From: Paralichthys olivaceus
Taxonomy: Eukaryota > Chordata > Actinopteri > Pleuronectiformes > Paralichthyidae
Reading direction: 5' to 3'
Length of the DNA: 64,000 nt
NCBI RefSeq assembly: GCF_024713975.1
Contig: NC_091112.1
Location: 410,001 to 474,000, forward strand
Part shown: piece after piece, positions 12,482 to 57,736 of the stretch
How positions within the stretch are numbered: position 1 is the stretch's first letter
How the letters are laid out: each line of letters starts with the position of its first letter
Made by a program: the position numbers and the translations under genes
The notes under the pieces: model-generated
Seen by the model: the letters and a program-made list of their open reading frames with translations, nothing else
Databases searched by the model: none
What the model was told of the DNA's origin: nothing

Positions 12482-15771
<3,290 letters not shown>

Positions 15772-17870: not shown

Positions 17871-19761
17871 ATGATCACTGACTGTATATAAAGATGATCA
17901 CTGACTGTATATAAAGATGATCACTGACTGTATATAAAGACCATCACTGAGTGTATATAAAGATGATCACTGACTGTATATAAAGATGATCACTGACTGT
18001 ATATAAAGACCATCACTGACTGTATATAAAGACCATCACTGACTGTATATAAAGATGATCACTGACTGTATATAAAGACCATCACTGACTGTATATAAAG
18101 ATGATCACTGACTGTATATAAAGATGATCACTGACTGTATATAAAGACCATCACTGACTGTATATAAAGACCATCACTGACTGTATATAAAGATGATCAC
18201 TGACTGTATATAAAGACCATCACTGACTGTATATAAAGACGATCACTGACTGTATATAAAGATGATCACTGACTGTATATAAAGATTCACCATCACTGAC
18301 TGTATATAAAGACCATCACTGACTGTATATAAAGATTCACCATCACTGACTGTATATAAAGATGATCACTGACTGTATATAAAGACGATCACTGACTGTA
18401 TATAAAGACCATCACTGACTGTATATAAAGATGATCACTGACTGTATATAAAGACCATCACTGACTGTATATAAAGATGATCACTGACTGTATATAAAGA
18501 TGATCACTGACTGTATATAAAGATGATCACTGACTGTATATAAAGACCATCACTGACTGTATATAAAGACCATCACTGACTGTATATAAAGATGATCACT
18601 GACTGTATATAAAGACCATCACTGACTGTATATAAAGACCATCACTGACTGTATATAAAGATTCACCATCACTGACTGTATATAAAGACCATCACTGACT
18701 GTATATAAAGATGATCACTGACTGTATATAAAGATGATCACTGACTGTATATAAAGACCATCACTGACTGTATATAAAGATGATCACTGACTGTATATAA
18801 AGACCATCACTGACTGTATATAAAGATGATCACTGACTGTATATAAAGATGATCACTGACTGTATATAAAGATGATCACTGACTGTATATAAAGATGATC
18901 ACTGACTGTATATAAAGACCATCACTGACTGTATATAAAGATGATCACTGACTGTATATAAAGATGATCACTGACTGTATATAAAGACCATCACTGACTG
19001 TATATAAAGATGATCACTGACTGTATATAAAGATGATCACTGACTGTATATAAAGACCATCACTGACTGTATATAAAGATGATCACTGACTGTATATAAA
19101 GACCATCACTGACTGTATATAAAGACCATCAGTGACTGTATATAAAGACCATCACTGACTGTATATAAAGATGATCACTGACTGTATATAAAGACGATCA
19201 CTGACTGTATATAAAGATGATCACTGACTGTATATAAAGATTCACCATCACTGACTGTATATAAAGACCATCACTGACTGTATATAAAGACCATCAGTGA
19301 CTGTATATAAAGACCATCACTGACTGTATATAAAGATGATCACTGACTGTATATAAAGATGATCACTGACTGTATATAAAGATGATCACTGACTGTATAT
19401 AAAGATTCACCATCACTGACTGTATATAAAGACACTGACTGTATATAAAGATGATCACTGACTGTATATAAAGACGATCACTGACTGTATATAAAGACCA
19501 TCACTGACTGTATATAAAGACGATCACTGACTGTATATAAAGATGATCACTGACTGTATATAAAGATGATCACTGACTGTATATAAAGATTCACCATCAC
19601 TGACTGTATATAAAGACACTGACTGTATATAAAGATGATCACTGACTGTATATAAAGACGATCACTGACTGTATATAAAGACCATCACTGACTGTATATA
19701 AAGACGATCACTGACTGTATATAAAGACGATCACTGACTGTATATAAAGATTCACCATCAC
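17871..19761. repeat. 23-bp TATATAAAG minisatellite, about 82 units (array B)
   Basis: The unit is gatgatcactgactgtatat plus aaa, with gaccatc and gacgatc variants. It is interspersed with 27-bp units (gattcaccatcactgactg...) and occasional 19-bp units (gacactgactg...). A higher-order pattern of about 184 bp is repeated near 19404 and 19588. The same 23-bp unit forms array A at 6428-7081. No gene lies inside. Confidence 0.97.
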
Positions 19762-19985: not shown

Positions 19986-20340
19986 ACTTCACAGTCTCTC
20001 TGTATCTGCTGAATCAAACACAACATGTGTTTACAGTGTGAACTGGTGGACCTGCTGCTCAGCTGACGATTCACCTGAAGAACAAGGTCACCGAACTCAT
20101 CAGGGTCAAATTCTGAAAGTCAGAGAATGTTTGTTGGCAGGTTTCCTCTCGTCACACCTCATTTCATGTGCATCGCCCACAGTGGCTGATAAGTTACTAT
20201 AATTATCTAATTATATGATACTATCTGCTCAGGCTGTACGGACACACCCTGAACAAAAACTTTAACTACAAGGTGGAGGAACTTTTTGTGGCATCAAGAG
20301 AAAGAGACAACAAACTGTCCCTGCACATGTGGGACAAATA
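19986..20340 (+). pseudogene. Possible decayed gene fragment upstream of the alanine-rich array
   Basis: Two stretches look like old coding exons. After an acceptor-like cttgtgcag at 19985, 19986-20104 reads DFTVSLYLLNQTQHVFTV, then an in-frame stop, then TGGPAAQLTIHLKNKVTELI. After tctgctcag at about 20232 the sequence reads RLYGHTLNKNFNYKVEELFV and continues ASRERDNKLSLHMWDK before a stop. The second piece is repeated ahead of copies 2 and 3 (about 27322-27400 and 35290-35400). I do not recognise the parent protein. Whether the two pieces were once joined is uncertain, because the first lacks a donor in the right phase. Confidence 0.3.
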
Positions 20341-20374
20341 CACCTTCATTTTATCAATTGTATGTTAAAATAGA

Positions 20375-20441
20375 GGACAGACAGAGGGCAGGTAGAGGAC
20401 AGACAGGGGCAGATAAACGACAGACAGGGGGCAGGTAGAGG
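20375..20441. repeat. 22-bp minisatellite, about 3 units (unit 1)
   Basis: The unit is aggacagacagagggcaggt plus ag. It is the short counterpart of the larger arrays ahead of copies 2 and 3. Confidence 0.85.
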
Positions 20442-20643
20442 ACTACTATTAAAATGTTTCCATGCATCACAACTATTAAAGCAGTTACGTGGAGCCTCGC
20501 CTTCATAGAACGCAGGTTACATAAATGTGCTGTTCTATGTTTAAACACAGGTATGAGCAAATTAAAGGACAACAAGTCATCAGTTTTAATTAGTGGGTTC
20601 GACAGGTTTCATCTCTATTAACCAGCATCCACACACTAAGAGT

Positions 20644-20746
20644 CCAATTACGTGGCAGGGAGGGGCGTCTCCGGGTCTGACATCATCATCATCGTCATTC
20701 ATGTGTCAATACCTGTGTTCCTGCTGCATCTTGGTGCATATATATA
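20644..20746 (+). promoter_or_regulatory. Promoter of alanine-rich copy 1
   Basis: A CCAAT box (20644-20648, in CCAATTACGTGG) lies about 90 bp upstream of a TATATATA box (20739-20746). The first exon would start near 20770, is non-coding and purine-rich, and ends at 20873 before a consensus GTGAGT donor. The arrangement is conserved in all three copies. Confidence 0.65.
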
Positions 20747-21229
20747 CAGGGTGAAGAGACAGGGACAGAAAGGACAAACTCAAACAAGAAGAAGAAGAGA
20801 CAGAGAAAGAGAGAGAGAGATACTGACCGTCGAGGAAACATCGTCACTTCACTGACTTCACTTCAACATCTGAGTGAGTTTTCAGTGATTTCATTTCATT
20901 TCAAATGTTTCTTTAGCTTTTATATGTCATATGTGCATATGATCATGTTCCTGTCAGTATCTCTTTTACAGTAGTTTTGGGTTTGATCAATTCAATTCAA
21001 TTCAATTTTATTTGTATAGCGCCAAATCATGATATACACGATCTCATTAAATGTCTCATAAATCACAGCACCAGTCGAGGCTGGAAATGTGTCCGACAGA
21101 TTTTATGATGTGACGTCATTTGACATGAACATGATCCAGTGTAGTTCAAGAGGAGTAGAGAGTTTTTTTAGTCAAATAACTGTATATGAGAACTTCATAC
21201 TGACAATATTTAGTTTTCTAACAATATTC

Positions 21230-21492
21230 ATCATGGCTGTGGCTGAGGGGTAGAGCGGTCGTCCTCCAAGCAGAAGGGCGGCAGCTCGATCCCTGGTCTT
21301 CCCATCTGCATGCCAAAGTGTCCTTGGGCAAGATGCTGAACCCCGAATTGCCCCATAGAACGAAAAAAGTGCTGCTAATAGATGCACTGTATGAATGTGT
21401 GTGTGAATGGGTGAATGGCAAACTGTAGTGTAAAGTGCTTTGAGTGGTCATCAAGACTAGAACAGCTCTATAAATACAAACCATTGACCATT
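21230..21492 (+). mobile_element. tRNA-derived SINE in intron 1, copy 1
   Basis: It begins with a tRNA-like head: a box A-like tggctgaggggtagagcgg and a box B-like ggcagctcgatccc. The body is typical of fish SINEs (catgccaaagtgtccttggg, then gtaaagtgctttgagtggtc). It lies in the intron just upstream of the signal-peptide exon and is present in all three units, so it predates the triplication. Confidence 0.75.
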
Positions 21493-21536
21493 TATTAACC
21501 GTCTCCTTTCAACTGTTTTTCATTTTCTTACAGACA

Positions 21537-24500
21537 ATGATCAGAGAAAGAGGAGGAGAACAGAAATCAATCAAAATGGTCGTCCACACTTTTGTCTTTG
21601 TTGTTATACTGATTGGTAAGTAATGATTTCTATGTTTTTAAGTTGTAAACTATTAACTCTGAAATATATGACTGAATTCTGACCAAACTCTTCAATGGAA
21701 ACAGCATCCATCAGCCAGACGGTAGAAGGAAGCCTGAAACTCAGGTGTCCCAGAAGTCCAGGTAACCTGACATCCACCTCAGCTGCTCCAACAACTTCCA
21801 CAGCTGCTCCCATAAGTGCTTCGATAACTCCCACTGCTGCATCAACAATTACCATGGCAACAATAGAAAGCCCAATCGGAGCAGCACCGGACCAAATCTC
21901 AAAAGCAACAGCAGCAAGCGTGACAGCAGTAGCAGCAGCAGTAGCAGCTACAGCAGCAGCTACAGCAGCAGTGGCAGGAACAACCTCTACAGGACAAGAT
22001 GCTGAAGATGCAGTAGCAGCTGCAGTAGCCGCTGCCACGGCTGCAATAAATGCAGCAGCAGCTTCTGAAGGACCATTAAGAGGAATAGCGCCAGGACAAG
22101 CTGCTCTAGAAGCAGCAAAAGCAGCTGCAAAAGCTAAATTAGCAGTAAACGCAGCGCTAAAAGCAGCTTCATCAGCCCCAGAATCAAAAGCAGGAATATT
22201 ACAACAAATAGTCGAGGCATCAGCCAATATATCAGCTGCAGCAGATAAAGTTGCAGAGGCTGTAGCTGCCGATGCCTCTTTGAACACAACAGAATCAGCA
22301 AAGTTAGTTGCAGCAGCTGCAAAAGAGGCAGCTGCTGCTGCAACAAGAGCTCTAGCAGCATTGCAGGTAGCATTATCAGAAGCCAAAAATGCAACATCTG
22401 GAGACAACACAGACTCACCATTAATGCAAGCATCAATGGTAGCAGCAGAAATAGCAATGGAAATGGCTGTAGCAACAGCAATGAAAGCAAAACAAGCAGC
22501 TGAAGCTGCAAACGATGCAGTAACAGCAACATCTGCACAAACATCAGTCAATAAGGCAAAAGAAGCAGTTGAAAAAGCTCGGGAAGCATCACAGATTGCA
22601 AAGGCTGCTGCACAAGCAGGAGAAACAGCAACATCTGCTGCTGCTACTGCAAATGCCATTTCTGCTGCAGGGGCACTAATTCCCACAACCTCAGCACCAA
22701 CAACAATGAGAACTACAGTATTATCTACTACTTCTACTACAACTACAACAATGGCTTCAAATGCATCACTACCAATAACACCACTCACAGCGGCATCCAC
22801 AGCAGCCACAGCAGCAACATCTGCAGCAACAGCAGTAGCAGCAGCAGCAGCAGCAGTTGCAGCAGCCGCTGCAGGACAACCACCCACAGCTGCAGAAAAT
22901 GCTTCAGAAACTGCACTAATAGCTGCTTCTACTGCCGCCGCTGTCACAGAAGGGAAGGCATCACCATCAATGGGAGCAGATGCAGCAACAACGGCAGCAA
23001 ATGCAGCTACAGCAGCAGCAGCAGCAGCAAAAGACGCAGCCAAAGCAGCACCAAATGCTACAGCAGTATTAGCACAACAAGCACTTGAGGCATCATTAAA
23101 AGCAGCTACAGCAGCAGAAGCAGCAGCAGAAGCAGCAAGATTCGCAGCAAGCATTAATGCATCACAAACAACACCAGCAACTGCAGCAGCTGTCACAGCA
23201 GCAGTTAAGTCTGCAGCACAGAAAGCAAAGGAAGCTGCAGACGATCTAAAAGCTTTACTTAAAGCAGCAGACTTAGAATCCCTACCAGCACAAACAGCAG
23301 CCATACTAAAATTAGCAATTGATTCAGCTGAGACAGCAGCAGAAATGGCTGCAGAGAGCGCAAAGAGGGCAGAAGAGGCAGCAGAAACTGCTGGAAAGGC
23401 ACTTGCATCACCACCAGGAGGGGCAGCAGCTCAACTGGAAGAAGCATCCATAAGTAAAGCAAAAGACGCAATAAATGCAGCAAAAGCAGCAGGTGCTGCT
23501 TCTACAGTCACTGCAGCAGGAGCTGCAGTGGCAGCGGCAGCGGCAGCGGCAGCACTGGACACAACTGCAGCAACAACTATACAGCCAACAACAGAGGGAG
23601 TAACAACAACACAATTAACAACACCATTGCCCATAACATTGTCACCAAGAGTAACACTAACAGTGAAAGCAGCATCTGCAGCAGCAGCAGCAGCAGCTAC
23701 TGCGGCAGCAGTAGGAGGGTCCACGTCTGCAGCGGCTGGAGCCACAACCAGCCCAGTTGCAGCAAAAGCCATGGAAGCTGCCCAAGATGCAGCCAGAGCT
23801 GCCATATTACTGGCAACAGGACAACAATCCCCAGCATTTGCAGCATTTGCAGCAACTACGGCTGCCCTTGCTGCCAAAGAAGCAGCAAAAGAAGCAAGTC
23901 TTGAGGCGGCAGCAGCCCCAGCATCAAAGAGAGAATCACTCAGAAGACTAGCCAATGCATCATCAATAGCTGCAGAGGCTGCTGAAGAAGCAGCAACAGC
24001 AGCAATGCTGGCAGCCTTTGGTGCCGCAACAGCTATTGAGAAAGTTGCACAAGCTGAAAAAACAGTGGCTGAAAAGGCAATAATAGTTGCAGGAATATTG
24101 AAAGCAGAATCATCATCCGTTAGTGGACCCACAGCAGCAGCCACACGTTTATCATTATCAGCATCGCAAGCAGTTGCAGGAATGACAGAAGCAACAGCAC
24201 TTATTGCATCTACGGCAATAGGGGACAAGGTAGCAGCAGCAAATGCAGCAGCAAAAAGCTCAGCAGCAGCAGCAAGGGCAGCCGAGGGGGCGCTCCCAAT
24301 TAAAGTGGATGCAACCACAGGACAACCACCAGTGGCAGGAACACCATCAACAGCACCAACGGAAAAACAAACTGCAGCAATAATATCATCCACCTCAGCA
24401 GCAGCAGCAGCGACTGCAGTGGCAGCCTCAACAGCAGCCGTTAGTGGAGCTACATCCAAAGAGTTAGAAGCTGCGATAAAATACGCACAAGTAGCAGCTC

Positions 24501-25987
24501 GAGCTGCCACCTTAGCAGCAAATGGAACAGCATCAGTATCCCAGGCAACAGCAGCAGCGGAAGAATCTGCAAAAGCAGCAGAAGCTGTAGCATTAGCAGC
24601 AATTCAAGCAGCATCAAAAGCACCAGCATCAATTGCAGTTGTGGTGGCAAAAATAGCACAGGAAGCATCAAAAGCTGCAAGGGCCGCAAGGGCAGCAGCA
24701 GCAGCAGCAAAAGCAGCCAATGAGGCAACTTCAGAAGCAGCATCTCAAAAGGCATTGATGGCAACAGACGAAGCTGCAAAAGCAGTGAGAAAATCAGCAA
24801 ATGATGCATTGGCAGCATTATCAGCAGTCCCAGCAGGAAAAGCAGAACAAATGACAGAAACAGCACGTTCAGCAATAGTCACAGCGAAAGCTGTGGCAGG
24901 GATAGCAGGAGCAACAGCATTTTCAGTAGAATCAGTGGTAAAGGCAGCAACAGCAAACAACTCTGAAATAATTACATCAAGTGCAAAATCAGCAGCAAGA
25001 AGTGCAACAGCAGCAGCAGGCGCTCTGCTTTCAACGGTATTAAACCCCACACCAGGCAGCAGTGCAGCACCAACCTTGGAAAGCACACCCAAGGCAACAA
25101 CAACAGCAGCAGCAGCAGCCGCAGCAGTTAAAGCAAAGGAAACCGCAGTAGTGGCGTCAACAGCAGCAGCTGCGGCTGCGGCTGCTGGTGCCTCAGCAGC
25201 TGCTGCAGCTGCTGGACCAGAGGCATCCGCAGCAGCCAAGAATGCAGCACAAGCTTCAAAAGAAGCAGCAAAGGCTGCTGCATTAGTTGCAGCAGGGGCA
25301 GCACCAGTGGAAACAGCAGCTGCGGCAGCAAGAAAAGCGGCCAAAGCAGCAGATGTGGCAGCACAAGCAGCAGTAGACGCAGCATCAAATACAGGCACAG
25401 CAGCACAAACAATACAAGCAGCGAAGATAGCAGCCTCAGCAAGAAAATTAGCTAAAGCGGCAGAAACTGCCGCAGCAGCAGCAACGCTGGCAGCAGCTGC
25501 AAATGCAGATACACAAACAATCTCAGGAACTGTAAAAGCTGCCAAAACAGTTGCCACAGAATCAAAAGAAGCAGCAAAACAACTGCGGGACGTTTTATCA
25601 CAGGCCACAGGGTCGACAGCAGCAGAGCAAGCAGCGATTGCAGGAGCACAGTCAGTGGCAGAGATGGCACAGGCAACAGCAACAGTAGCTACAACAGCAG
25701 CGGAAACAGCAGTAGACGCAGCATCACAAAAGTCACCAACATCCGAGGCAGATCTCACAGCAATAATGACATCAACAGCACAGGGGGCGGTGACATCAGC
25801 CTCAGCCGCAGCAACAGCAGCAGAGGCCCTCGCTGACAGCGCTAACAACGCAGCAGCAGCAGGTGGATCTGGATCTGGTTCTGAATCAGGATCAAATACA
25901 GGAAGCAACACAACAGGAGCTGCAGGTTACAACAAAATCAGCCTGGTTACTGTGGTGTTCGCTGTCATCGCTGCTCTGCTTCTGTGA
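21537..25987 (+). CDS. Giant alanine-rich, GPI-anchor-like surface protein, copy 1
   Basis: Coding exons 21537-21615 and 21705-25987 (phase 1, G|CA) give 1453 residues. Residues 1-26 hold a signal peptide (MVVHTFVFVVILIG core). The second methionine, residue 14, has the better start context (AAAATGG) and may be the true start. The mature part is overwhelmingly Ala with Thr, Ser, Lys, Glu and Val. There is a single Cys near the N-terminus (LKLRCPRSPG) and no Trp. About five long alanine-helix-like blocks are separated by Thr/Pro/Ser-rich, mucin-like linkers near residues 45-79, 352-380, 643-672, 892-915 and 1140-1162. The C-terminus is a Gly/Ser spacer, a small-residue region (SNTTGAAG) and a hydrophobic end (ISLVTVVFAVIAALLL), the layout of a GPI-attachment signal. 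Ala is mostly GCA. The family is not recognised. It resembles type I antifreeze proteins only in being Ala-rich; I see no regular 11-residue Thr spacing. The long antisense Ala/Val frames are shadows. Confidence 0.82.
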
Positions 25988-26335
25988 GGAGCAACTTAAC
26001 GCAGCTGGCTGCACTGAAGGACTGATATGTTCAATTGTAGAATATAAAGATGTATTTATTTTATTTTATCTCCACTTTTTCAGGTGTATATCTTAATTAT
26101 GAAAATGTAATATTTGTCTGAGAAGTTGGATCAAAGGAAATGAGAAAGGGAACAATGATCAATATTTTAATAATCACTAATCAGTAACAATAGAGATATT
26201 TAACCCTTTAAACAGCTGTAAATTATAGTATTTATTACCCTATTTATTGTGAGCGTGTGTTTGCACTGAATGAAACTGTTAATGTTCTATAGTTTAATGC
26301 AAATCATATTTGAAATTGTGACTGTTTTGATCATA

Positions 26336-26341
26336 AATAAA
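26336..26341 (+). terminator. Poly(A) signal, alanine-rich copy 1
   Basis: AATAAA about 350 bp after the stop codon, conserved in all three units. Confidence 0.6.
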
Positions 26342-26399
26342 CAGCTGATCTTGATGTATTTTATGAAAGAATGTGATTATGTCTTCATCAATAAATGAA

Positions 26400-27195
26400 C
26401 GATAACTGCATTTTGCTTTGATCTTTGTTTTCTTTGCCGAGCACATGGGTCCTATGCCGAGCATAGGATCAAAGTCAAAATCAACTTCAGCTCAACCAGT
26501 AACAACATTCACATGTTAGTGCTTCACTTTTAATCATCAAAATGTCAAGTTTTCACACTGAACGAGTACTTTTACTGTTAATACTTTTCCTTGGACATTT
26601 TCGTGAAGTTTTGGGCTTTTTAAATAAAAAGTAAAATGATTGTGTTGAAATAAATTCAATATTTTATATATAATATGAACATAAACATTATCAAGAGGAA
26701 GAAATGAATTTAATGATCAGATATTTTCAAATAAAATGTTAAGTTTGCTAACTGAACAAGTACTTTTACTTTTTAATACTTTTCCTTGGAGTTAAGTATC
26801 ATACACATTCTGTTTTTTTAATTTTAACTCAAGTGGATGGAGCGAGTGACTTATGCACCACTGAGAACAATACGCACCTAATAAACTGGTGACTGGGTGT
26901 ATAATCTCGAATCTCTGCATCTGATTATTAATTCTAAATATCTCTGAAACACATTTTCCAAAGGTGTGGTGCCGCAGACACAACTTGTACTTTACATGAA
27001 AATACAATTAGCGCAATTATCAGCAGCACTCAACTGGAGCATCAGAAAAGAACTTGAGGGTTCATAGAACAATGGAGGGCAGGAAGAAAGGTGAGTTTAC
27101 CTTTGTCACACCTTTAAAACACAAAGGGGATTCAATGACACACAAACCAACAATTATAAATCACAGTAGAGATGAATCACAAGGAGAGAAGCAAT
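26400..27195. other. AT-rich spacer between copies 1 and 2, no gene
   Basis: No coding signal. The sequence is nearly identical to 34349-35145 and 40250-41047. It contains two tandem-like acttttactgttaatacttt blocks and a small inverted motif (ccgagcacatgggtcctatg/ccgagcatagg). Confidence 0.5.
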
Positions 27196-28104
27196 GTACA
27201 GGGGACAGAGAGAGGACAGACGGAGCAGACAGAGGACAGACAGGGCAGATAATGGTCAGATAGGGGGCAGGTAGAGGACAGATGGGGGTAAATAAAATAG
27301 CTCTCTCAGACAGTTGGAACGGAGGTGGAGGAACTTTTTGTGGCATCAAGAGAAAGAGACAACAATTGTCCCTGCACATGTGGGACAATATACATATTAT
27401 CAATTGTATGTTAAAATAGAGGACAGACAGTGGGCAAGTAGTGGACAAACAGGGGGCAGGTAGAGGACAGACAGGGGGCAGATAGAGGACAGACAGAGGG
27501 CAGGTAGAGGACAGACAGGGGGCAGGTAGAGGACAGACAGAGGGCAGATAGAGGACAGACAGAGGGCAGGTAGAGGACAGACAGGGGGCAGGTAGAGGAC
27601 AGACAGGGGCAGATAGAGGACAGACAGAGGGCAGGTAGAGCACAGACAGAGGGCAGATAGAGGACAGACAGAGGGCAGGTAGAGGACAGACAGGGGGCAG
27701 GTAGAGGACAGACAGGGGCAGATAGAGGACAGACAGAGGGCAGGTAGAGGACAGACGGAGCAGAAAGAGGACAGACAGAGGGCAGGTAGAGGACAGACAG
27801 GGGGCAGGTAGAGGACAGACAGAGGGCAGGTAGAGGACAGACAGGGGGCAGGTAGAGGACAGACAGGGGCAGATAAACGACAGACAGGGGGCAGATAGAG
27901 GACAGACAGAGGGCAGGTAGAGGACAGACAGGGGGCAGATAGAGGACAGACAGAGGGCAGATAGAGGACAGACAGAGGGCAGGTAGAGGACAGACAGAGG
28001 GCAGATAGAGGACAGACAGAGGGCAGATAGAGAACAGACAGAGGGCAGGTAGAGGACAGACAGAGGGCAGATAGAGGACAGACAGAGGGCAGGTAGAGGA
28101 CAGA
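27195..28104. repeat. 22-bp minisatellite ahead of copy 2, about 31 units in the main block
   Basis: The unit is aggacagacagagggcaggt plus ag, with gggggcag and gcagatag variants, at 27417-28104, with a smaller block at 27195-27290. The 327-codon minus-strand frame (CPLPALCLSS repeats) is a repeat shadow. A piece of the decayed exon seen at 20232-20340 lies between the two blocks. Confidence 0.93.
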
Positions 28105-28592
28105 TGGGGGTAAATAAAATCTCTCTCTCAGACAGTTGGAACAAGTTACATTTTATTTCCTGGAGTCGTCTGATATATTTTTTAAAGACGTCGAATCGCA
28201 GAAGCTAAAAATTCCGGGTCTGAATACAGAGAAAAAGCAAGATGCTCAGAATTCTTAGGAAATATGTATAAATAATAAAACCATATACAATATTATAAAT
28301 AATTCATTATTTACAGGAAAGATCAGAGACTCAGAAATCACAGTGATGTAGAGTAAACACACACACACACACACAAATAAAATCTCTCCCTCTACTATTA
28401 AAATGTTTCCATGCATCACAACTATTAAAGCAGTTACGTGGAGCCTCGCCTTCATAGAACGCAGGTTACATAAATGTGCTGTTCTATGTTTAAACACAGG
28501 TATGAGCAAATTAAAGGACAACAAGTCATCAGTTTTAATTAGTGGGTTCGACAGGTTTCATCTCTATTAACCAGCATCCACACACTAAGAGT

Positions 28593-28695
28593 CCAATTAC
28601 GTGGCAGGGAGGGGCGTCTCCGGGTCTGACATCATCATCATCGTCATTCATTTGTCAATACCTGTGTTCCTGCTGCATCTTGGTGCATATATATA
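28593..28695 (+). promoter_or_regulatory. Promoter of alanine-rich copy 2
   Basis: Same CCAAT box and TATATATA (28688-28695) as copy 1. The non-coding exon ends at 28822 before GTGAGT. Confidence 0.65.
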
Positions 28696-29178
28696 CAGGG
28701 TGAAGAGACAGGGACAGAAAGGACAAACTCAAACAAGAAGAAGAAGAGACAGAGAAAGAGAGAGAGAGATACTGACCGTCGAGGAAACATCGTCACTTCA
28801 CTGACTTCACTTCAACATCTGAGTGAGTTTTCAGTGATTTCATTTCATTTCAAATGTTTCTTTAGCTTTTATATGTCATATGTGCATATGATCATGTTCC
28901 TGTCAGTATCTCTTTTACAGTAGTTTTGGGTTTGATCAATTCAATTCAATTCAATTTTATTTGTATAGCGCCAAATCATGATATACACGATCTCATTAAA
29001 CGTCTCATAAATCACAGCACCAGTCGAGGCTGGAAATGTGTCCGACAGATTTTATGATGTGACGTCATTTGACATGAACATGATCCAATGTAGTTCAAGA
29101 GGAGTAGAGAGTTTTTTTAGTCAAATAACTGTATATGAGAACTTCATACTGACAATATTTAGTTTTCTAACAATATTC

Positions 29179-29441
29179 ATCATGGCTGTGGCTGAGGGGT
29201 AGAGCGGTCGTCCTCCAAGCAGAAGGGCGGCAGCTCGATCCCTGGTCTTCCCATCTGCATGCCAAAGTGTCCTTGGGCAAGATGCTGAACCCCGAATTGC
29301 CCCATAGAACGAAAAAAGTGCTGCTAATAGATGCACTGTATGAATGTGTGTGTGAATGGGTGAATGGCAAACTGTAGTGTAAAGTGCTTTGAGTGGTCAT
29401 CAAGACTAGAACAGCTCTATAAATACAAACCATTGACCATT
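29179..29441 (+). mobile_element. tRNA-derived SINE in intron 1, copy 2
   Basis: Same insertion, position and body as the element at 21230-21492, inherited through the duplication. Confidence 0.75.
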
Positions 29442-29485
29442 TATTAACCGTCTCCTTTCAACTGTTTTTCATTTTCTTACAGACA

Positions 29486-32400
29486 ATGATCAGAGAAAGA
29501 GGAGGAGAACAGAAATCAATCAAAATGGTCGTCCACACTTTTGTCTTTGTTGTTATACTGATTGGTAAGTAATGATTTCTATGTTTTTAAGTTGTAAACT
29601 ATTAACTCTGAAATATATGACTGAATTCTGACTAAACTCTTCAATGGAAACAGCATCCATCAGCCAGACGGTAGAAGGAAGCCTGAAACTCAGGTGTCCC
29701 AGAAGTCCAGGTAACCTGACATCCACCTCAGCTGCTCCAACAACTTCCACAGCTGCTCCCATAAGTGCTTCGATAACTCCCACTGCTGCACCAACAATTA
29801 CCATGGCAACAATAGAAAGCCCAATCGGAGCAGCACCGGACCAAATCTCAAAAGCAACAGCAGCAAGCGTGACAGCAGTAGCAGCAGCAGTAGCAGCTAC
29901 AGCAGCAGCTACAGCAGCAGTGGCAGGAACAACCTCTACAGGACAAGATGCTGAAGATGCAGTAGCAGCTGCAGTAGCCGCTGCCACGGCTGCAATAAAT
30001 GCAGCAGCAGCTTCTGAAGGACCATTAAGAGGAATAGCGCCAGGACAAGCTGCTCTAGAAGCAGCAAAAGCAGCTGCAAAAGCTAAATTAGCAGTAAACG
30101 CAGCGCTAAAAGCAGCTTCATCAGCCCCAGAATCAAAAGCAGGAATATTACAACAAATAGTCGAGGCATCAGCCAATATATCAGCTGCAGCAGATAAAGT
30201 TGCAGAGGCTGTAGCTGCCGATGCCTCTTTGAACACAACAGAATCAGCAAAGTTAGTTGCAGCAGCTGCAAAAGAGGCAGCTGCTGCTGCAACAAGAGCT
30301 CTAGCAGCATTGCAGGTAGCATTATCAGAAGCCAAAAATGCAACATCTGGAGACAACACAGACTCACCATTAATGCAAGCATCAATGGTAGCAGCAGAAA
30401 TAGCAATGGAAATGGCTGTAGCAACAGCAATGAAAGCAAAACAAGCAGCTGAAGCTGCAAACGATGCAGTAACAGCAACATCTGCACAAACATCAGTCAA
30501 TAAGGCAAAAGAAGCAGTTGAAAAAGCTCGGGAAGCATCACAGATTGCAAAGGCTGCTGCACAAGCAGGAGAAACAGCAACATCTGCTGCTGCTACTGCA
30601 AATGCCATTTCTGCTGCAGGGGCACTAATTCCCACAACCTCAGCACCAACAACAATGACAACTACAGTATTATCTACTACTTCTACTACAACTACAACAA
30701 TGGCTTCAAATGCATCACTACCAATAACACCACTCACAGCGGCATCCACAGCAGCCACAGCAGCAACATCTGCAGCAACAGCAGTAGCAGCAGCAGCAGC
30801 AGCAGTTGCAGCAGCCGCTGCAGGACAACCACCCACAGCTGCAGAAAATGCTTCAGAAACTGCACTAATAGCTGCTTCTACTGCCGCCGCTGTCACAGAA
30901 GGGAAGGCATCACCATCAATGGGAGCAGATGCAGCAACAACGGCAGCAAATGCAGCTACAGCAGCAGCAGCAGCAGCAAAAGACGCAGCCAAAGCAGCAC
31001 CAAATGCTACAGCAGTATTAGCACAACAAGCACTTGAGGCATCATTAAAAGCAGCTACAGCAGCAGAAGCAGCAGCAGAAGCAGCAAGATTCGCAGCAAG
31101 CATTAATGCATCACAAACAACACCAGCAACTGCAGCAGCTGTCACAGCAGCAGTTAAGTCTGCAGCACAGAAAGCAAAGGAAGCTGCAGACGATCTAAAA
31201 GCTTTACTTAAAGCAGCAGACTTAGAATCCCTACCAGCACAAACAGCAGCCATACTAAAATTAGCAATTGATTCAGCTGAGACAGCAGCAGAAATGGCTG
31301 CAGAGAGCGCAAAGAGGGCAGAAGAGGCAGCAGAAACTGCTGGAAAGGCACTTGCATCACCACCAGGAGGGGCAGCAGCTCAACTGGAAGAAGCATCCAT
31401 AAGTAAAGCAAAAGACGCAATAAATGCAGCAAAAGCAGCAGGTGCTGCTTCTACAGTCACTGCAGCAGGAGCTGCAGTGGCAGCGGCAGCGGCAGCGGCA
31501 GCACTGGACACAACTGCAGCAACAACTATACAGCCAACAACAGAGGGAGTAACAACAACACAATTAACAACACCATTGCCCATAACATTGTCACCAAGAG
31601 TAACACTAACAGTGAAAGCAGCATCTGCAGCAGCAGCAGCAGCAGCTACTGCGGCAGCAGTAGGAGGGTCCACGTCTGCAGCGGCTGGAGCCACAACCAG
31701 CCCAGTTGCAGCAAAAGCCATGGAAGCTGCCCAAGATGCAGCCAGAGCTGCCATATTACTGGCAACAGGACAACAATCCCCAGCATTTGCAGCATTTGCA
31801 GCAACTACGGCTGCCCTTGCTGCCAAAGAAGCAGCAAAAGAAGCAAGTCTTGAGGCGGCAGCAGCCCCAGCATCAAAGAGAGAATCACTCAGAAGACTAG
31901 CCAATGCATCATCAATAGCTGCAGAGGCTGCTGAAGAAGCAGCAACAGCAGCAATGCTGGCAGCCTTTGGTGCCGCAACAGCTATTGAGAAAGTTGCACA
32001 AGCTGAAAAAACAGTGGCTGAAAAGGCAATAATAGTTGCAGGAATATTGAAAGCAGAATCATCATCCGTTAGTGGACCCACAGCAGCAGCCACACGTTTA
32101 TCATTATCAGCATCGCAAGCAGTTGCAGGAATGACAGAAGCAACAGCACTTATTGCATCTACGGCAATAGGGGACAAGGTAGCAGCAGCAAATGCAGCAG
32201 CAAAAAGCTCAGCAGCAGCAGCAAGGGCAGCCGAGGGGGCGCTCCCAATTAAAGTGGATGCAACCACAGGACAACCACCAGTGGCAGGAACACCATCAAC
32301 AGCACCAACGGAAAAACAAACTGCAGCAATAATATCATCCACCTCAGCAGCAGCAGCAGCGACTGCAGTGGCAGCCTCAACAGCAGCCGTTAGTGGAGCT

Positions 32401-33936
32401 ACATCCAAAGAGTTAGAAGCTGCGATAGAATACGCACAAGTAGCAGCTCGAGCTGCCACCTTAGCAGCAAATGGAACAGCATCAGTATCCCAGGCAACAG
32501 CAGCAGCGGAAGAATCTGCAAAAGCAGCAGAAGCTGTAGCATTAGCAGCAATTCAAGCAGCATCAAAAGCACCAGCATCAATTGCAGTTGTGGTGGCAAA
32601 AATAGCACAGGAAGCATCAAAAGCTGCAAGGGCCGCAAGGGCAGCAGCAGCAGCAGCAAAAGCAGCCAATGAGGCAACTTCAGAAGCAGCATCTCAAAAG
32701 GCATTGATGGCAACAGACGAAGCTGCAAAAGCAGTGAGAAAATCAGCAAATGATGCATTGGCAGCATTATCAGCAGTCCCAGCAGGAAAAGCAGAACAAA
32801 TGACAGAAACAGCACGTTCAGCAATAGTAACAGCGAAAGCTGTGGCAGAGATAGCAGGAGCAACAGCATTTTCAGTAGAATCAGTGGTAAAGGCAGCAAC
32901 AGCAAACAACTCTGAAATAATTACATCAAGTGCAAAATCAGCAGCAAGAAGTGCAACAGCAGCAGCAGGCGCTCTGCTTTCAACGGTATTAAACCCCACA
33001 CCAGGCAGCAGTGCAGCACCACCCTTGGAAAGCACACCCAAGGCAACAACAACAGCAGCAGCAGCAGCCGCAGCAGTTAAAGCAAAGGAAACCGCAGTAG
33101 TGGCGTCAACAGCAGCAGCTGCGGCTGCGGCTGCTGGTGCCTCAGCAGCTGCTGCAGCTGCTGGACCAGAGGCATCCGCAGCAGCCAAGAATGCAGCACA
33201 AGCTTCAAAAGAAGCAGCAACGGCTGCTGCATTAGTTGCAGCAGGGGCAGCACCAGTGGAAACAGCAGCTGCGGCAGCAAGAAAAGCGGCCAAAGCAGCA
33301 GATGTGGCAGCACAAGCAGCAGTAGACGCAGCATCAAATACAGGCACAGCAGCACAAACAATACAAGCAGCGAAGATAGCAGCCTCAGCAAGAAAATTAG
33401 CTAAAGCGGCAGAAACTGCCGCAGCAGCAGCAACGCTGGCAGCAGCTGCAAATGCAGATACACAAACAATCTCAGGAACTGTAAAAGCTGCCAAAACAGT
33501 TGCCACAGAATCAAAAGAAGCAGCAAAACAACTGCGGGACGTTTTATCACAGGCCACAGGGTCGACAGCAGCAGAGCAAGCAGCGATTGCAGGAGCACAG
33601 TCAGTGGCAGAGATGGCACAGGCAACAGCAACAGTAGCTACAACAGCAGCGGAAACAGCAGTAGACGCAGCATCACAAAAGTCACCAACATCCGAGGCAG
33701 ATCTCACAGCAATAATGACATCAACAGCACAGGGGGCGGTGACATCAGCCTCAGCCGCAGCAACAGCAGCAGAGGCCCTCGCTGACAGCGCTAACAACGC
33801 AGCAGCAGCAGGTGGATCTGGATCTGGTTCTGAATCAGGATCAAATACAGGAAGCAACACAACAGGAGCTGCAGGTTACAACAAAATCAGCCTGGTTACT
33901 GTGGTGTTCGCTGTCATCGCTGCTCTGCTTCTGTGA
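29486..33936 (+). CDS. Giant alanine-rich, GPI-anchor-like surface protein, copy 2
   Basis: Exons 29486-29564 and 29654-33936, 1453 residues, with the same architecture as copy 1. Comparing the two proteins I find six residue differences (Ser/Pro, Arg/Thr, Lys/Glu, Gly/Glu, Thr/Pro and Lys/Thr, copy 1 first), no length change, and only one silent change that I noticed. Signal peptide, five Ala-rich blocks, Thr/Pro linkers and the hydrophobic C-terminus are all intact. Near-identity of introns and flanks as well points to a very recent duplication, gene conversion, or an assembly duplicate. Function unknown, as for copy 1. Confidence 0.82.
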
Positions 33937-34284
33937 GGAGCAACTTAACGCAGCTGGCTGCACTGAAGGACTGATATGTTCAATTGTAGAATATAAAGAT
34001 GTATTTATTTTATTTTATCTCCACTTTTTCAGGTGTATATCTTAATTATGAAAATGTAATATTTGTCTGAGAAGTTGGATCAAAGGAAATGAGAAAGGGA
34101 ACAATGATCAATATTTTAATAATCACTAATCAGTAACAATAGAGATATTTAACCCTTTAAACAGCTGTAAATTATAGTATTTATTACCCTATTTATTGTG
34201 AGCGTGTGTTTGCACTGAATGAAACTGTTAATGTTCTATAGTTTAATGCAAATCATATTTGAAATTGTGACTGTTTTGATCATA

Positions 34285-34290
34285 AATAAA
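34285..34290 (+). terminator. Poly(A) signal, alanine-rich copy 2
   Basis: AATAAA at the position equivalent to 26336 in copy 1. Confidence 0.6.
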
Positions 34291-35144
34291 CAGCTGATCT
34301 TGATGTATTTTATGAAAGAATGTGATTATGTCTTCATCAATAAATGAACGATAACTGCATTTTGCTTTGATCTTTGTTTTCTTTGCCGAGCACATGGGTC
34401 CTATGCCGAGCATAGGATCAAAGTCAAAATCAACTTCAGCTCAACCAGTAACAACATTCACATGTTAGTGCTTCACTTTTAATCATCAAAATGTCAAGTT
34501 TTCACACTGAACGAGTACTTTTACTGTTAATACTTTTCCTTGGACATTTTCGTGAAGTTTTGGGCTTTTTAAATAAAAAGTAAAATGATTGTGTTGAAAT
34601 AAATTCAATATTTTATATATAATATGAACATAAACATTATCAAGAGGAAGAAATGAATTTAATGATCAGATATTTTTCAAATAAAATGTTAAGTTTGCAA
34701 ACTGAACGAGTACTTTTAATTTTTAATACTTTTCCTTGGAGTTAAGTATCATACACATTCTGTTTTTTTAATTTTAACTCAAGTGGATGGAGCGAGTGAC
34801 TTATCCACCACTGAGAACAATATGCACCTAATAAACTGGTGACTGGGTGTATAATCTCAAATCTCTGCGTCTGATTATTAATTCTAAATATCTCTGAAAC
34901 ACATTTTCCAAAGGTGTGGTGCCGCAGACACAACTTGTACTTTACATGAAAATACAATTAGCGCAATTATCAGCAGCACTCAACTGGAGCATCAGAAAAG
35001 AACTTGAGGGTTTATAGAACAATGGAGGGCAGGAAGAAAGGTGAGTTTACCTTTGTCACACCTTTAAAACACAAAGGGGATGACACACAGACCAACAATT
35101 ATAAATCACAGTAGAGATGAATCACAAGGAGAGAAGCAATGTAC

Positions 35145-35832
35145 AGGGGACAGAGAGAGGACAGACGGAGCAGACAGAGGACAGACAGGGGGCAGATAAA
35201 TGACAGACAGGGGGCAGGTAGAGGACAGACAGGGGGCAGATAAAGGACAGATGGGGGTAAATAAAATCGCTCTCTCAGACAGTTGGAACGGAGACGCCCT
35301 GAACAAAAACTTTAACTACGAGGTGGAGGAACTTTTTGTGGCATCAAGAGAAAGAGACAACAAACTGTCCCTGCACATGTGGGACAATATACATATTATC
35401 AATTGTATGTTAAAATAGAGGACAGACAGAGGGCAAGTAGTGGACAGACAGAGGGCAGGTAGAGGACAGACAGAGGGCAGGTAGAGGACAGACAGAGGGC
35501 AGGTAGAGGACAGACAGAGGGCAGGTAGAGGACAGACAGGGGGCAGGTAGAGGACAGACAGGGGGCAGGTAGAGGACAGACAGGGGGCAGGTAGAGGACA
35601 GACAGAGGACAGACAGAGGGCAGGTAGAGGACAGACAGAGGGCAGGTAGAGGACAGACAGAGGGCAGGTAGAGGACAGACAGAGGGCAGATAGAGAACAG
35701 ACAGAGGGCAGATAGAGGACAGACAGAGGGCAGATAGAGAACAGACAGAGGGCAGGTAGAGGACAGACAGGGGGCAGATAGAGGACAGACAGAGGGCAGG
35801 TAGAGGACAGACAGAGGGCAGGTAGAGGACAG
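35145..35832. repeat. 22-bp minisatellite ahead of copy 3, about 19 units in the main block
   Basis: The same aggacagacagagggcaggt-type unit, main block 35415-35832 with a small block at 35145-35255. It is shorter than the array ahead of copy 2 and much longer than the three units ahead of copy 1. Confidence 0.93.
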
Positions 35833-36321
35833 ATGGGGGTAAATAAAATCTCTCTCTCAGACAGTTGGAACAAGTTACATTTTATTTCCTGGAGTCGTCT
35901 GATATATTTTTTAAAGACGTCGAATCGCAGAAGCTAAAAATTCCGGGTCTGAATACAGAGAAAAAGCAAGATGCTCAGAATTCTTAGGAAATATGTATAA
36001 ATAATAAAACCATATACAATATTATAAATAATTCATTATTTACAGGAAAGATCAGAGACTCAGAAAGCACAGTGATGTAGAGTAAACACACACACACACA
36101 CAATAATAAAATCTCTCCCTCTACTATTAAAATGTTTCCATGCATCACAACTATTAAAGCAGTTACGTGGAGCCTCGCCTTCATAGAACGCAGGTTACAT
36201 AAATGTGCTGTTCTATGTTTAAACACAGGTATGAGCAAATTAAAGGACAACAAGTCATCAGTTTTAATTAGTGGGTTCGACAGGTTTCATCTCTATTAAC
36301 CAGCATCCACACACTAAGAGT

Positions 36322-36424
36322 CCAATTACGTGGCAGGGAGGGGCGTCTCCGGGTCTGACATCATCATCATCGTCATTCATTTGTCAATACCTGTGTTCCT
36401 GCTGCATCTTGGTGCATATATATA
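36322..36424 (+). promoter_or_regulatory. Promoter of alanine-rich copy 3
   Basis: Same CCAAT and TATATATA (36417-36424) arrangement. The non-coding exon ends at 36551 before GTGAGT. Confidence 0.65.
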
Positions 36425-36907
36425 CAGGGTGAAGAGACAGGGACAGAAAGGACAAACTCAAACAAGAAGAAGAAGAGACAGAGAAAGAGAGAGAGAGATA
36501 CTGACTGTCGAGGAAACATCGTCACTTCACTGACTTCACTTCAACATCTGAGTGAGTTTTCAGTGATTTCATTTCATTTCAAATGTTTCTTTAGCTTTTA
36601 TATGTCATATGTGCATATGATCATGTTCCTGTCAGTATCTCTTTTACAGTAGTTTTGGGTTTGATCAATTCAATTCAATTCAATTTTATTTGTATAGCGC
36701 CAAATCATGATATACACGATCTCATTAAACGTCTCATAAATCACAGCACCAGTCGAGGCTGGAAATGTGTCCGACAGATTTTATGATGTGACGTCATTTG
36801 ACATGAACATGATCCAATGTAGTTCAAGAGGAGTAGAGAGTTTTTTTAGTCAAATAACTGTATATGAGAACTTCATACTGACAATATTTAGTTTTCTAAC
36901 AATATTC

Positions 36908-37170
36908 ATCATGGCTGTGGCTGAGGGGTAGAGCGGTCGTCCTCCAAGCAGAAGGGCGGCAGCTCGATCCCTGGTCTTCCCATCTGCATGCCAAAGTGTC
37001 CTTGAGCAAGATGCTGAACCCCGAATTGCCCCACAGAACGAAAAAAGTGCTGCTAATAGATGCACTGTATGAATGTGTGTGTGAATGGGTGAATGGCAAA
37101 CTGTAGTGTAAAGTGCTTTGAGTGGTCATCAAGACTAGAACAGCTCTATAAATACAAACCATTGACCATT
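36908..37170 (+). mobile_element. tRNA-derived SINE in intron 1, copy 3
   Basis: Same insertion as in units 1 and 2, with a few substitutions. Confidence 0.75.
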
Positions 37171-37214
37171 TATTAACCGTCTCCTTTCAACTGTTTTTCA
37201 TTTTCTTACAGACA

Positions 37215-39837
37215 ATGATCAGAGAAAGAGGAGGAGAACAGAAATCAATCAAAATGGTCGTCCACACTTTTGTCTTTGTTGTTATACTGATTGGTAAGTA
37301 ATGATTTCTATGTTTTTAAGTTGTAAACTATTAACTCTGAAATATATGACTGAATTCTGACTAAACTCTTCAATGTAACAAAAGCAACAGGTGCTGCTTC
37401 TACAGTCACTGCAGCAGCACTGGACACAACTGCAGCAACAACTATACAGCCAACAACAGAGGGAGTAACAACACCATTGCCCATAACATTGTCACCAAGA
37501 GTAACACTAACAGTGAAAGCAGCATCTGCAGCAGCAGCAGCAGCAGCTACTGCGGCAGCAGTAGGAGGGTCCACGTCTGCAGCGGCTGGAGCCACAACCA
37601 GCCCAGTTGCAGCAAAAGCCATGGAAGCTGCCCAAGATGCAGCCAGAGCTGCCATATTACTGGCCACAGGACAACAATCCCCAGCATTTGCAGCATTTGC
37701 AGCAACTACGGCTGCCCTTGCTGCCAAAGAAGCAGCAAAAGAAGCAAGTCTTGAGGCGGCAGCAGCCCCAGCATCAAAGAGAGACTCACTCACAAGACTA
37801 GCCAATGCATCATCAATAGCTGCAGAGGCTGCTGAAGAAGCAGCAACAGCAGCAATGCTGGCAGCCTTTGGTGCCGCAACAGCTATTGAGAAAGTTGCAC
37901 AAGCTGAAAAAACAGTGGCTGAAAAGGCAATAATAGTTGCAGGAATATTGAAAGAAGAATCATCATCCGTTAGTGGACCCACAGCAGCAGCCACACGTTT
38001 ATCATTATCAGCATCGCAAGCAGTTGCAGGAATGACAGAAGCAACAGCACTTATTGCATCTACGGCAATAGGGGACAAGGTAGCAGCAGCAAATGCAGCA
38101 GCAAAAAGCTCAGCAGCAGCAGCAAGGGCAGCAGAGGAGGCGCTCCCAATTAAAGTGTATGCAGCCACAAACCAACCACCAGTGGCAGGAACACCATCAA
38201 CAGCACCAACGGAAAAACAAACTGCAGCAATAATATCATCCACCTCAGCAGCAGCAGCAGCGACTGCAGTGGCAGCCTCAACAGCAGCCGTTAGTGGAGC
38301 TACATCCAAAGAGTTAGAAGCTGCGATAGAATACGCACAAGTAGCAGCTCGAGCTGCCACCTTAGCAGCAAATGGAACAGCATCAGTATCCCAGGCAACA
38401 GCAGCAGCGGAAGAATCTGCAAAAGCAGCAGAAGCTGTAGCATTAGCAGCAATTCAAGCAGCATCAAAAGCACCAGCATCAATTGCAGTTGTGGTGGCAA
38501 AAATAGCACAGGAAGCATCAAAAGCTGCAAGGGCCGCAAGGGCAGCAGCAGCAGCAGCAAAAGCAGCCAATGAGGCAACTTCAGAAGCAGCATCTCAAAA
38601 GGCATTGATGGCAACAGACGAAGCTGCAAAAGCAGTGAGAAAATCAGCAAATGATGCATTGGCAGCATTATCAGCAGTCCCAGCAGGAAAAGCAGAACAA
38701 ATGACAGAAACAGCACGTTCAGCAATAGTAACAGCGAAAGCTGTGGCAGAGATAGCAGGAGCAACAGCATTGTCAGTAGAATCAGTGGTAAAGGCAGCAA
38801 CAGCAAACAACTCTGAAATAATTACATCAAGTGCAAAATCAGCAGCAAGAAGTGCAACAGCAGCAGCAGGCGCTCTGCTTTCAACGGTATTAAACCCCAC
38901 ACCAGGCAGCAGTGCAGCACCAACCTTGGAAAGCACACCCAAGGCAACAACAACAGCAGCAGCAGCAGCCGCAGCAGTTAAAGCAAAGGAAACCGCAGTA
39001 GTGGCGTCAACAGCAGCAGCTGCGGCTGCGGCTGCTGGTGCCTCAGCAGCTGCTGCAGCTGCTGGACCAGAGGCATCCGCAGCAGCCAAGAATGCAGCAC
39101 AAGCTGCAAAAGAAGCAGCAACGGCTGCTGCATTAGTTGCAGCAGGGGCAGCACCAGTGGAAACAGCAGCTGCGGCAGCAAGAAAAGCGGCCAAAGCAGC
39201 AGATGTGGCAGCACAAGCAGCAGTAGATGCAGCATCAAATACAGGCACAGCAGCACAAACAATACAAGCAGCGAAGATAGCAGCCTCAGCAAGAAAATTA
39301 GCTAAAGCGGCAGACACTGCCGCAGCAGCAGCAACGCTGGCAGCAGCTGCAAATGCAGATACACAAACAATCTCAGGAACTGTAAAAGCTGCCAAAACAG
39401 TTGCCACAGAATCAAAAGAAGCAGCAAAACAACTGCGGGACGTTTTATCACAGGCCACAGGGTCGACAGCAGCAGAGCAAGCAGCGATTGCAGGAGCACA
39501 GTCAGTGGCAGAGATGGCACAGGCAACAGCAACAGTAGCTACAACAGCAGCGGAAACAGCATTAGACGCAGCATCACAAAAGTCACCAACATCCGAGGCA
39601 GATCTCACAGCAATAATGACATCAACAGCACAGGGGGCGGTGACATCAGCCTCAGCCGCAGCAACAGCAGCAGAGGCCCTCGCTGACAGCGCTAACAACG
39701 CAGCAGCAGCAGGTGGATCTGGATCTGGTTCTGAAACAGGATCAAATACAGGAAGCAACACAACAGGAGCTGCAGGTTACAACAAAATCAGCCTGGTTAC
39801 TGTGGTGTTCGCTGTCATCGCTGCTCTGCTTCTGTGA
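37215..39837 (+). CDS. Alanine-rich, GPI-anchor-like surface protein, copy 3 (shortened)
   Basis: Exon 37215-37293 encodes the same signal peptide. The large exon has lost the region equivalent to 29654-31441 of copy 2, including the normal acceptor. An AG at 37389-37390 (aaaagcaacag|GT) lies at the junction in the right phase (G|GT), giving exon 37391-39837 and a predicted 841-residue protein. Other GCAG acceptors a few codons downstream would also be in frame. Two smaller in-frame deletions (33 and 15 nt) follow. The last three Ala-rich blocks, their linkers and the GPI-like tail are kept. Copy 3 has more residue changes than copies 1 and 2 have between them (for example RDSLTRL against RESLRRL, and KVYAATNQPP against KVDATTGQPP). 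Splicing to the new site is inferred; without it the copy would be dead. Confidence 0.65.
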
Positions 39838-40185
39838 GGAGCAACTTAACGCAGCTGGCTGCACTGAAGGACTGATATGTTCAATTGTAGAATATAAAGA
39901 TGTATTTATTTTATTTTATCTCCACTTTTTCAGGTGTATATCTTAATTATGAAAATGTAATATTTGTCTGAGAAGTTGGATCAAAGGAAATGAGAAAGGG
40001 AACAATGATCAATATTTTAATAATCACTAATCAGTAACAATAGAGATATTTAACCCTTTAAACAGCTGTAAATTATAGTATTTATTACCCTATTTATTGT
40101 GAGCGTGTGTTTGCACTGAATGAAACTGTTAATGTTCTATAGTTTAATGCAAATCATATTTGAAATTGTGACTGTTTTGATCATA

Positions 40186-40191
40186 AATAAA
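40186..40191 (+). terminator. Poly(A) signal, alanine-rich copy 3
   Basis: AATAAA at the position equivalent to 26336 in copy 1. Confidence 0.6.
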
Positions 40192-41047
40192 CAGCTGATC
40201 TTGATGTATTTTATGAAAGAATGTGATTATGTCTTCATCAATAAATGAACGATAACTGCATTTTGCTTTGATCTTTGTTTTCTTTGCCGAGCACATGGGT
40301 CCTATGCCGAGCATAGGATCAAAGTCAAAATCAACTTCAGCTCAACCAGTAACAACATTCACATGTTAGTGCTTCACTTTTAATCATCAAAATGTCAAGT
40401 TTTCACACTGAACGAGTACTTTTACTGTTAATACTTTTCCTTGGACATTTTCGTGAAGTTTTGGGCTTTTTAAATAAAAAGTAAAATGATTGTGTTGAAA
40501 TAAATTCAATATTTTATATATAATATGAACATAAACATTATCAAGAGGAAGAAATGAATTTAATGATCAGATATTTTTCAAATAAAATGTTAAGTTTGCA
40601 AACTGAACGAGTACTTTTACTTTTTAATACTTTTCCTTGGAGTTAAGTATCATACACATTCTGTTTTTTTAATTTTAACTCAAGTGGATGGAGCGAGTGA
40701 CTAATCCACCACTGAGAACAATACGCACCTAATAAACTGGTGACTGGGTGTATAATCTCGAATCTCTGCGTCTGATTATTAATTCTAAATATCTCTGAAA
40801 CACATTTTCCAAAGGTGTGGTGCCGCAGACACAACTTGTACTTTACATGAAAATACAATTAGCGCAATTATCAGCAGCACTCAACTGGAGCATCAGAAAA
40901 GAACTTGAGGGTTTATAGAACAATGGAGGGCAGGAAGAAAGGTGAGTTTACCTTTGACACACCTTTAAAACACAAAGGGGATTCAATGACACACAAACCA
41001 ACAATTATAAATCACAGTAGAGATGAATCACAAGGAGAGAAGCAATG

Positions 41048-50415: not shown

Positions 50416-57736
<7,321 letters not shown>

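Follow-up and report, generated by a model that had tools for sequence, protein, structure and literature searches.

Introduction

Lineage-specific repetitive secreted proteins such as antifreezes, silks and mucins are built for the most part from short or unfolded repeats. Among the surface proteins of trypanosomes, BARP and GARP are tied to the membrane by a glycosylphosphatidylinositol (GPI) anchor, a lipid that PI-PLC releases. So is MISP, and BARP takes its name from its alanine content (PMC10089363). Type I antifreeze proteins of fish cause thermal hysteresis and, in the flounder lineage, have a Gig2-related gene as their origin. They feature threonine at 11-residue intervals, and a table in PMC9122973 gives Pacific, Greenland and spotted halibut and olive flounder as species without them. 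Here we describe three adjacent genes in a window of Paralichthys olivaceus DNA (64,000 nucleotides, positions 410,001 to 474,000 of NC_091112.1 in assembly GCF_024713975.1; coordinates below count from its first letter), each coding for a very large alanine-rich protein whose repeated unit is predicted to be a compact seven-helix bundle. Our favored explanation, to which we assign a probability of roughly 0.5, is an orphan gene of flatfish that recently became three tandem copies and encodes a GPI-anchored glycoprotein of the cell surface, acting as a coat or spacer.

Three tandem copies share one gene anatomy

Self-alignment of the window resolves three adjacent tandem units spanning 20443-41049 on the + strand, with 20443-27847 matching 28392-35839 at 98.4% identity and 20443-21700 matching 36121-37378 at 99.4%. 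An earlier note on this DNA had proposed that three genes are each built of a TATA promoter, a non-coding exon, an exon for a signal peptide and a single huge exon, and alignment, motifs and junctions all bear this out: in every copy a TATA box precedes a leader exon, the exon for the signal peptide and a huge in-frame exon that ends in a GPI-type tail. The TATA motif is found exactly in three places, starting at 20736, 28685 and 36414, and the signal-exon motif lies at 21575, 29524 and 37253. GTAAGT donors and AG acceptors are present in 3/3 copies, and the junction between exons 2 and 3 is in frame at phase 1. Exon 1 was placed by eye, with its start set about 30 bp past the TATA box.

The stop-to-stop frames of copies 1 and 2 run from 21683 to 25987 and from 29632 to 33936, 1434 codons each, as expected from the earlier claim of a frame open for 4.3 kb; that of copy 3 runs from 37354 to 39837 (827 codons). 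The predicted products are 1440, 1440 and 830 residues long, with 37% alanine and 11% threonine. Five blocks, about the number previously suggested for every gene, are found in copies 1 and 2, but copy 3 has three, since a 1780-bp deletion took the end of intron 2 together with most of blocks 1 and 2. The deletion junction still provides an in-phase AG acceptor. The features of the three copies are as follows.

20736..20750, + strand: TATA box of copy 1, exact motif GCATATATATACAGG, repeated at 28685 and 36414
20769..20873, + strand: probable non-coding exon 1 of copy 1, by eye, with donor GTGAGT at 20874
21534..21615, + strand: exon 2 of copy 1, signal peptide MVVHTFVFVVILI, ATG at 21576 and a second in-frame ATG at 21537
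21705..25987, + strand: exon 3 of copy 1, five blocks and GPI-type tail, from open frame and junction
21896..22675, + strand: block 1, seven helices predicted, from block alignment and AlphaFold2 (predicted local distance difference test score, pLDDT, 86.2; predicted template modeling score, pTM, 0.87)
22784..23557, + strand: block 2, from homology to the other blocks
23663..24307, + strand: block 3, from homology to the other blocks, weakest with block 1
24368..25033, + strand: block 4, seven helices predicted, from AlphaFold2 (pLDDT 93.9, pTM 0.92)
25091..25858, + strand: block 5, from homology to the other blocks
25859..25987, + strand: Gly/Ser spacer and GPI-type hydrophobic tail NTTGAAGYNKISLVTVVFAVIAALLL of copy 1, from rule-based omega-site and hydropathy
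25988..26420, + strand: 3' untranslated region (UTR) of copy 1, AATAAA at 26336 and 26390
29483..29564, + strand: exon 2 of copy 2, from signal-exon motif and junction
29654..33936, + strand: exon 3 of copy 2, five blocks, from open frame and junction
37212..37293, + strand: exon 2 of copy 3, from signal-exon motif and junction
37385..39837, + strand: exon 3 of copy 3, three blocks, from open frame and junction

The secreted, GPI-like character suggested for these proteins is consistent with the signal peptide and with a hydrophobic tail that, under rule-based GPI criteria, offers six omega candidates and a mean hydropathy of 2.88 over its last 15 residues. As observations on the side, copy 1 has one cysteine (residue 28, codon 21746-21748) and no tryptophan, and copy 3 has no cysteine; intron 1 of all three copies holds a SINE-like repeat, tRNA-like by eye and at about 21234-21494 in copy 1, of which the genome has at least 37 more occurrences (88-93% identity).

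Repeated blocks with helical periodicity and a predicted fold

In all 10 pairs of blocks the alignment score exceeds that of residue shuffles (z 2.0 to 8.7); 9/10 remain at z ≥ 2.1 against shuffles confined to 11-residue windows, with the pair of blocks 1 and 3 dropping to 0.6. Alanine is overrepresented at lags 3, 4 and 7 (z 4.9, 4.6 and 6.2) and underrepresented at lags 2 and 5, the charged residues follow the same 3-4-7 pattern, and the hydrophobic moment has its maximum at 103 degrees (z 9.0). Exon 3 also contains short repeats of 12 and 21 bp; the latter might contribute to the signal at lag 7, though not to those at lags 3 and 4. AlphaFold2 predicts seven helices in a compact bundle for blocks 4 and 1, the two of the five that were modeled. 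In the other four blocks, with loops and helices assigned from the block 4 prediction, proline falls on 14/208 loop positions vs 5/712 helix positions (P 2.5e-6). The alanine-rich helical design described earlier is thus recovered in composition, periodicity and predicted helices alike. For the notion of alanine-helix-like blocks, it is the helices that hold up; in the two modeled blocks these are predicted to form compact seven-helix bundles and not loose stretches.

The protein also has 12 N-glycosylation sequons where 5.9-6.7 are expected, a number reached by 0.7-2.2% of shuffles. We take periodicity and sequons to be features of helices and of secretion, not to be expected from a DNA repeat alone. 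The linkers between blocks are short and rich in threonine, proline and serine, and most of the protein's length is alanine-rich. Columns with an identical residue between blocks use the same codon in 442/789 cases vs 404 expected, so the block duplication looks old, although the bias toward A-ending codons makes this a weak test.

An open frame with a mosaic of codon usage

Exon 3 has no in-frame stops. Markov controls of orders 1-5 (300 sequences each, best frame counted) average 34-40 stops with a minimum of 14, and 0/1500 are open. The earlier note had argued for use of the frame from the way in which copy differences avoid stops, an argument that carries no weight: a random change produces a stop with probability 0.035, so that 27 changes (7 + 20, some common to several copy pairs) would all avoid stops by chance with P = 0.39. 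Leader and GPI tail are in frame in 3/3 copies. The copy 3 exon has two internal indels, of 33 and 15 bp, each a multiple of three. Between copies 1 and 2 the exon is free of indels, and those outside it measure 1, 5, 24, 29, 1 and 270 bp; these are too few events to weigh much. The 3' UTRs (433 bp; 25988-26420, 33937-34369 and 39838-40270) are free of substitutions in each of the three copy pairs, and the sequence just past them differs by 0.8-1.2%, a pattern that could reflect either gene conversion or constraint. Long antisense frames of 608, 390 and 393 residues were considered as genes and set aside, the best antisense frame having 4 stops vs none in sense; we regard them as side effects of the codon pattern.

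Codon usage is far from uniform along the gene. A occupies the third position in 0.61 of codons in copy 1 vs 0.11 in 3223 codons from eight G-protein-coupled receptor (GPCR) genes of this genome, a narrow reference sample. Within the protein, A-ending codons make up 844/1321 of the core (residues 78-1398) vs 14/67 of the leader (1-45) and tail (1419-1440) combined (P 3e-12), with residues 46-77 (0.47) and 1399-1418 (0.60) kept out of the comparison. The bias extends to three of the four linkers (0.61, 0.77 and 0.80); the fourth stands at 0.47. To us this suggests a host-like shell enclosing a core with a history of its own; the core may have originated by expansion of a GCA-type tract. Of the AG dinucleotides in the core, 467/547 share the signal exon's splice phase, such that blocks can be lost from the 5' side with the frame intact, as happened in copy 3.

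Searches for relatives

At E ≤ 1, neither copy 1 nor copy 3 matched any Pfam family, and the prokaryote library NCBIfam returned 0 families. In a database of 5.8 billion proteins, none scored at E ≤ 0.001 among the 8000 candidates sharing most words, and the N-terminal stretch had no protein match at E ≤ 10 among 281 candidates. A GPCR of the same genome, run as a control, gave 2233 matches among 8000 candidates, the best among the matches listed being from Hippoglossus hippoglossus and Platichthys flesus, so flatfish proteins are in the searched database, and the fish origin supposed in the earlier note is borne out. In a simulation, a relative with 42% identity came out at E of about 1e-89 for that database size, and it would be scored provided that it also shared enough words. 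The searched set therefore appears to contain no annotated, full-length, close relative; kin that are unannotated, much shorter or strongly diverged may still exist. Within the genome itself (588 Mb, 25 contigs), a protein search found only the three copies at E ≤ 0.001 (33/50 candidates scored), and DNA searches with the leader region and with the tail plus 3' UTR likewise found only the three copies and no parent gene. The description of this family as unknown therefore stands for the libraries and candidates scored here.

A block profile run against PDB sequences gave 12 matches at E ≤ 10, the best two of which are designed helical repeat proteins (E 0.0048 and 0.009); we take these to reflect like composition and helix pattern, not kinship. 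For block 4, 6/10 of the best solved structural matches are designed proteins. VIA-align brought no natural structural family to prominence among 997 chains for block 4 and 202 for block 1, and Foldseek, run for block 4 only, gave 0/235 matches at E ≤ 0.001. Three PDB matches to the single sequence were pyruvate kinases (E 0.71-0.92), weak hits that were put down to composition. Among the open-licence papers listed, no title or abstract start concerned a fish alanine-rich GPI-anchored protein.

Genomic neighborhood

The orphan genes are placed between RNMT and RING1. Neighboring genes were named by eye.

12947-14108: exons of an mRNA cap guanine-N7 methyltransferase (PF03291; RNMT-like), upstream of the copies
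27417..28104, + strand: 22-bp minisatellite between copies 1 and 2
35416-35833: minisatellite like the 22-bp one, between copies 2 and 3
42547-43553: exons of a RING1/RING2-type ligase, downstream of the copies
53042-53287: weak match to VPS52 (E 1.2e-4, below Pfam's cut-off), downstream of the copies
60147-60674 (- strand) and 62378-62911 (+ strand): immunoglobulin V-set exons, beyond VPS52

A separate 23-bp minisatellite unit occurs at 17871-19751 (81 copies) and again at 6427-7080 (28 copies), 11 kb apart, on either side of the RNMT-like gene.

Interpretation and alternatives

If these genes encode a GPI-anchored coat or spacer, then the signal peptide would route the protein to the endoplasmic reticulum, and every alanine-rich block of 215-260 residues would fold as an antiparallel bundle of seven helices, whose heptad-like alanine permits tight helix packing. 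Linkers rich in threonine and proline, probably O-glycosylated, would together with N-glycans hold the bundles apart, the C-terminal tail would be exchanged for a GPI anchor, and the product would be a tall coat or spacer resembling beads on a string, with five beads or three. The computed features behind this proposal are the gene anatomy, the open frame, the block homology, the helical periodicity, the sequon excess and the seven-helix prediction for two of five blocks.

Several observations weigh against it. Expression, GPI anchoring, glycosylation and the coat role are inferred, the last of them from architecture. The large hydrophobics (I, L, V, M and F) have no helical period, which leaves the packing pattern to alanine and polar residues. 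The alignment used to model block 1 was made without block 4, but all four of its rows also stood in the alignment for block 4, so the two models are not independent; moreover, AlphaFold2 can be over-confident on designed-like helical sequence. Between blocks, identities exceed those of shuffles only slightly, by 0.048 and 0.028 at codon positions 1 and 2 and by 0.027 at position 3, and with an excess at position 3 as large as at the others, constraint between blocks is not seen this way. Against 3119 nonsynonymous and 1201 synonymous sites, copies 1 and 2 differ by 6 nonsynonymous and 1 synonymous changes, with no purifying selection visible, and copies 1 and 3 by 15 and 5, as neutral change would give, after dropping 14 deletion-junction codons as misaligned from a raw count of 29:5 (codon 609 may be a true difference). 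The recent changes between copies look neutral. The empty search of the large protein database also belongs on this side.

A rival account is a gene that does not work, in which a repetitive A- and CAG-rich tract sits behind a captured leader, stays open by its codon make-up and was amplified along with the minisatellite. Such an account would draw on the neutral-looking copy differences, the lack of an annotated homologue, codon usage far from that of the GPCR genes and the 12- and 21-bp repeats in the exon. Composition-matched sequence was never open, however; helical phase, sequon excess, proline placement and predicted fold are features at the level of protein, and leader and tail are kept in frame in every copy. 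We regard a non-working gene as rather improbable. Somewhat less so, though still unlikely in our judgment, is a mucin-like or egg-envelope structural protein of mucus or the egg coat, anchored by its tail before release. The linkers, the 12 sequons, the repeated blocks and the tandem copies would all suit such a protein, but threonine and proline dominate only in short linkers while the bulk is alanine-rich, and since Pfam gave no family, no ZP or VWD domain is recognised in copies 1 and 3.

Two further readings appear much less probable. An immune-type surface protein could have been built on an immunoglobulin-superfamily receptor shell, keeping the leader exon, phase-1 intron and V-domain start, with the rest replaced by alanine-rich blocks. 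The N-terminus SISQTVEGSLKLRCP has what we take by eye to be a resemblance to the first strands of an immunoglobulin V domain, on a stretch too short for a domain test; the phase of the exon 2/3 junction fits, and two V-set exons lie about 20-40 kb downstream. The genome searches with leader and tail regions, though, recovered no parent for such a shell, and we consider this reading very unlikely. We put lowest of all an ice-binding protein convergent with type I antifreezes. In its favor are alanine-rich helices in a secreted fish protein and the origin of type I antifreezes in righteye flounders, near kin of this fish (PMC9122973). The GPCR protein of this genome, a single gene, agrees with that kinship and would place the fish probably within Pleuronectidae or just outside it, being identical to that of halibut at 400/419 residues and to that of flounder at 397/417 (halibut vs flounder 404/417); complicating this placement, it is nearer to wolf-eel (376/416) and remora (375/416) than to the flatfishes Solea (368/418) and Scophthalmus (365/416). 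Threonine is not enriched at lag 11 (7 pairs, z -0.7), has no period above z 2.5 in its spectrum and, over lags 1-30, reaches |z| ≥ 2 only at lag 6 (z 2.6); alanine and charges follow 3-4-7 instead. The analogy with type I antifreezes drawn in the earlier note fails because threonine is not spaced at 11 residues, and of the sequence features of that family this protein has the alanine-rich helix without the spacing. The blocks are, in addition, predicted as packed bundles, and a GPI anchor would be ill-suited to a blood antifreeze.

Returning to the coat or spacer, a more speculative extension, which we consider doubtful, is that its folded domain family originated in ray-finned fish and perhaps in flatfish themselves. 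A triplet tract of GCA type, rich in A, would have expanded within the shell of a secreted GPI gene, become a seven-helix alanine-packed bundle and multiplied to five domains, leaving the A-ending codons as a fossil. If expressed, the protein would be a natural instance of a designed-like alanine-packed bundle and would let the emergence of a new fold from simple sequence be followed in a vertebrate. The locus also suggests that low-complexity masking may make gene catalogues miss a coding exon of 4.3 kb.

Comparison with known systems

Among the closest known systems we count the designed single-chain antiparallel helical barrels (sc-apCC-6; PMC11288890), a fold with at least six antiparallel helices round a channel, and the trypanosome triple-helix-bundle proteins MISP, BARP and GARP, which, like the predicted flatfish protein, are surface proteins of helical-bundle architecture (PMC10089363). 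With the type I antifreezes of righteye flounders, including Maxi, as covered in PMC9122973, the flatfish genes share alanine-rich alpha-helices, secreted forms and near-identical tandem gene repeats. The antifreezes described there are 37-195 residues long with threonine every 11 residues, whereas the flatfish protein has 1440 residues without that spacing, is multi-domain and ends in a GPI-type tail. The antifreeze glycoprotein gene described in the same paper kept a trypsinogen signal-peptide exon and amplified a core, and the flatfish gene similarly joins a signal exon to an amplified core. The glycoprotein core, however, repeats a 9-bp unit, while the flatfish core repeats what is predicted to be a folded domain, and DNA searches with the leader and tail regions found no parent gene in the genome.

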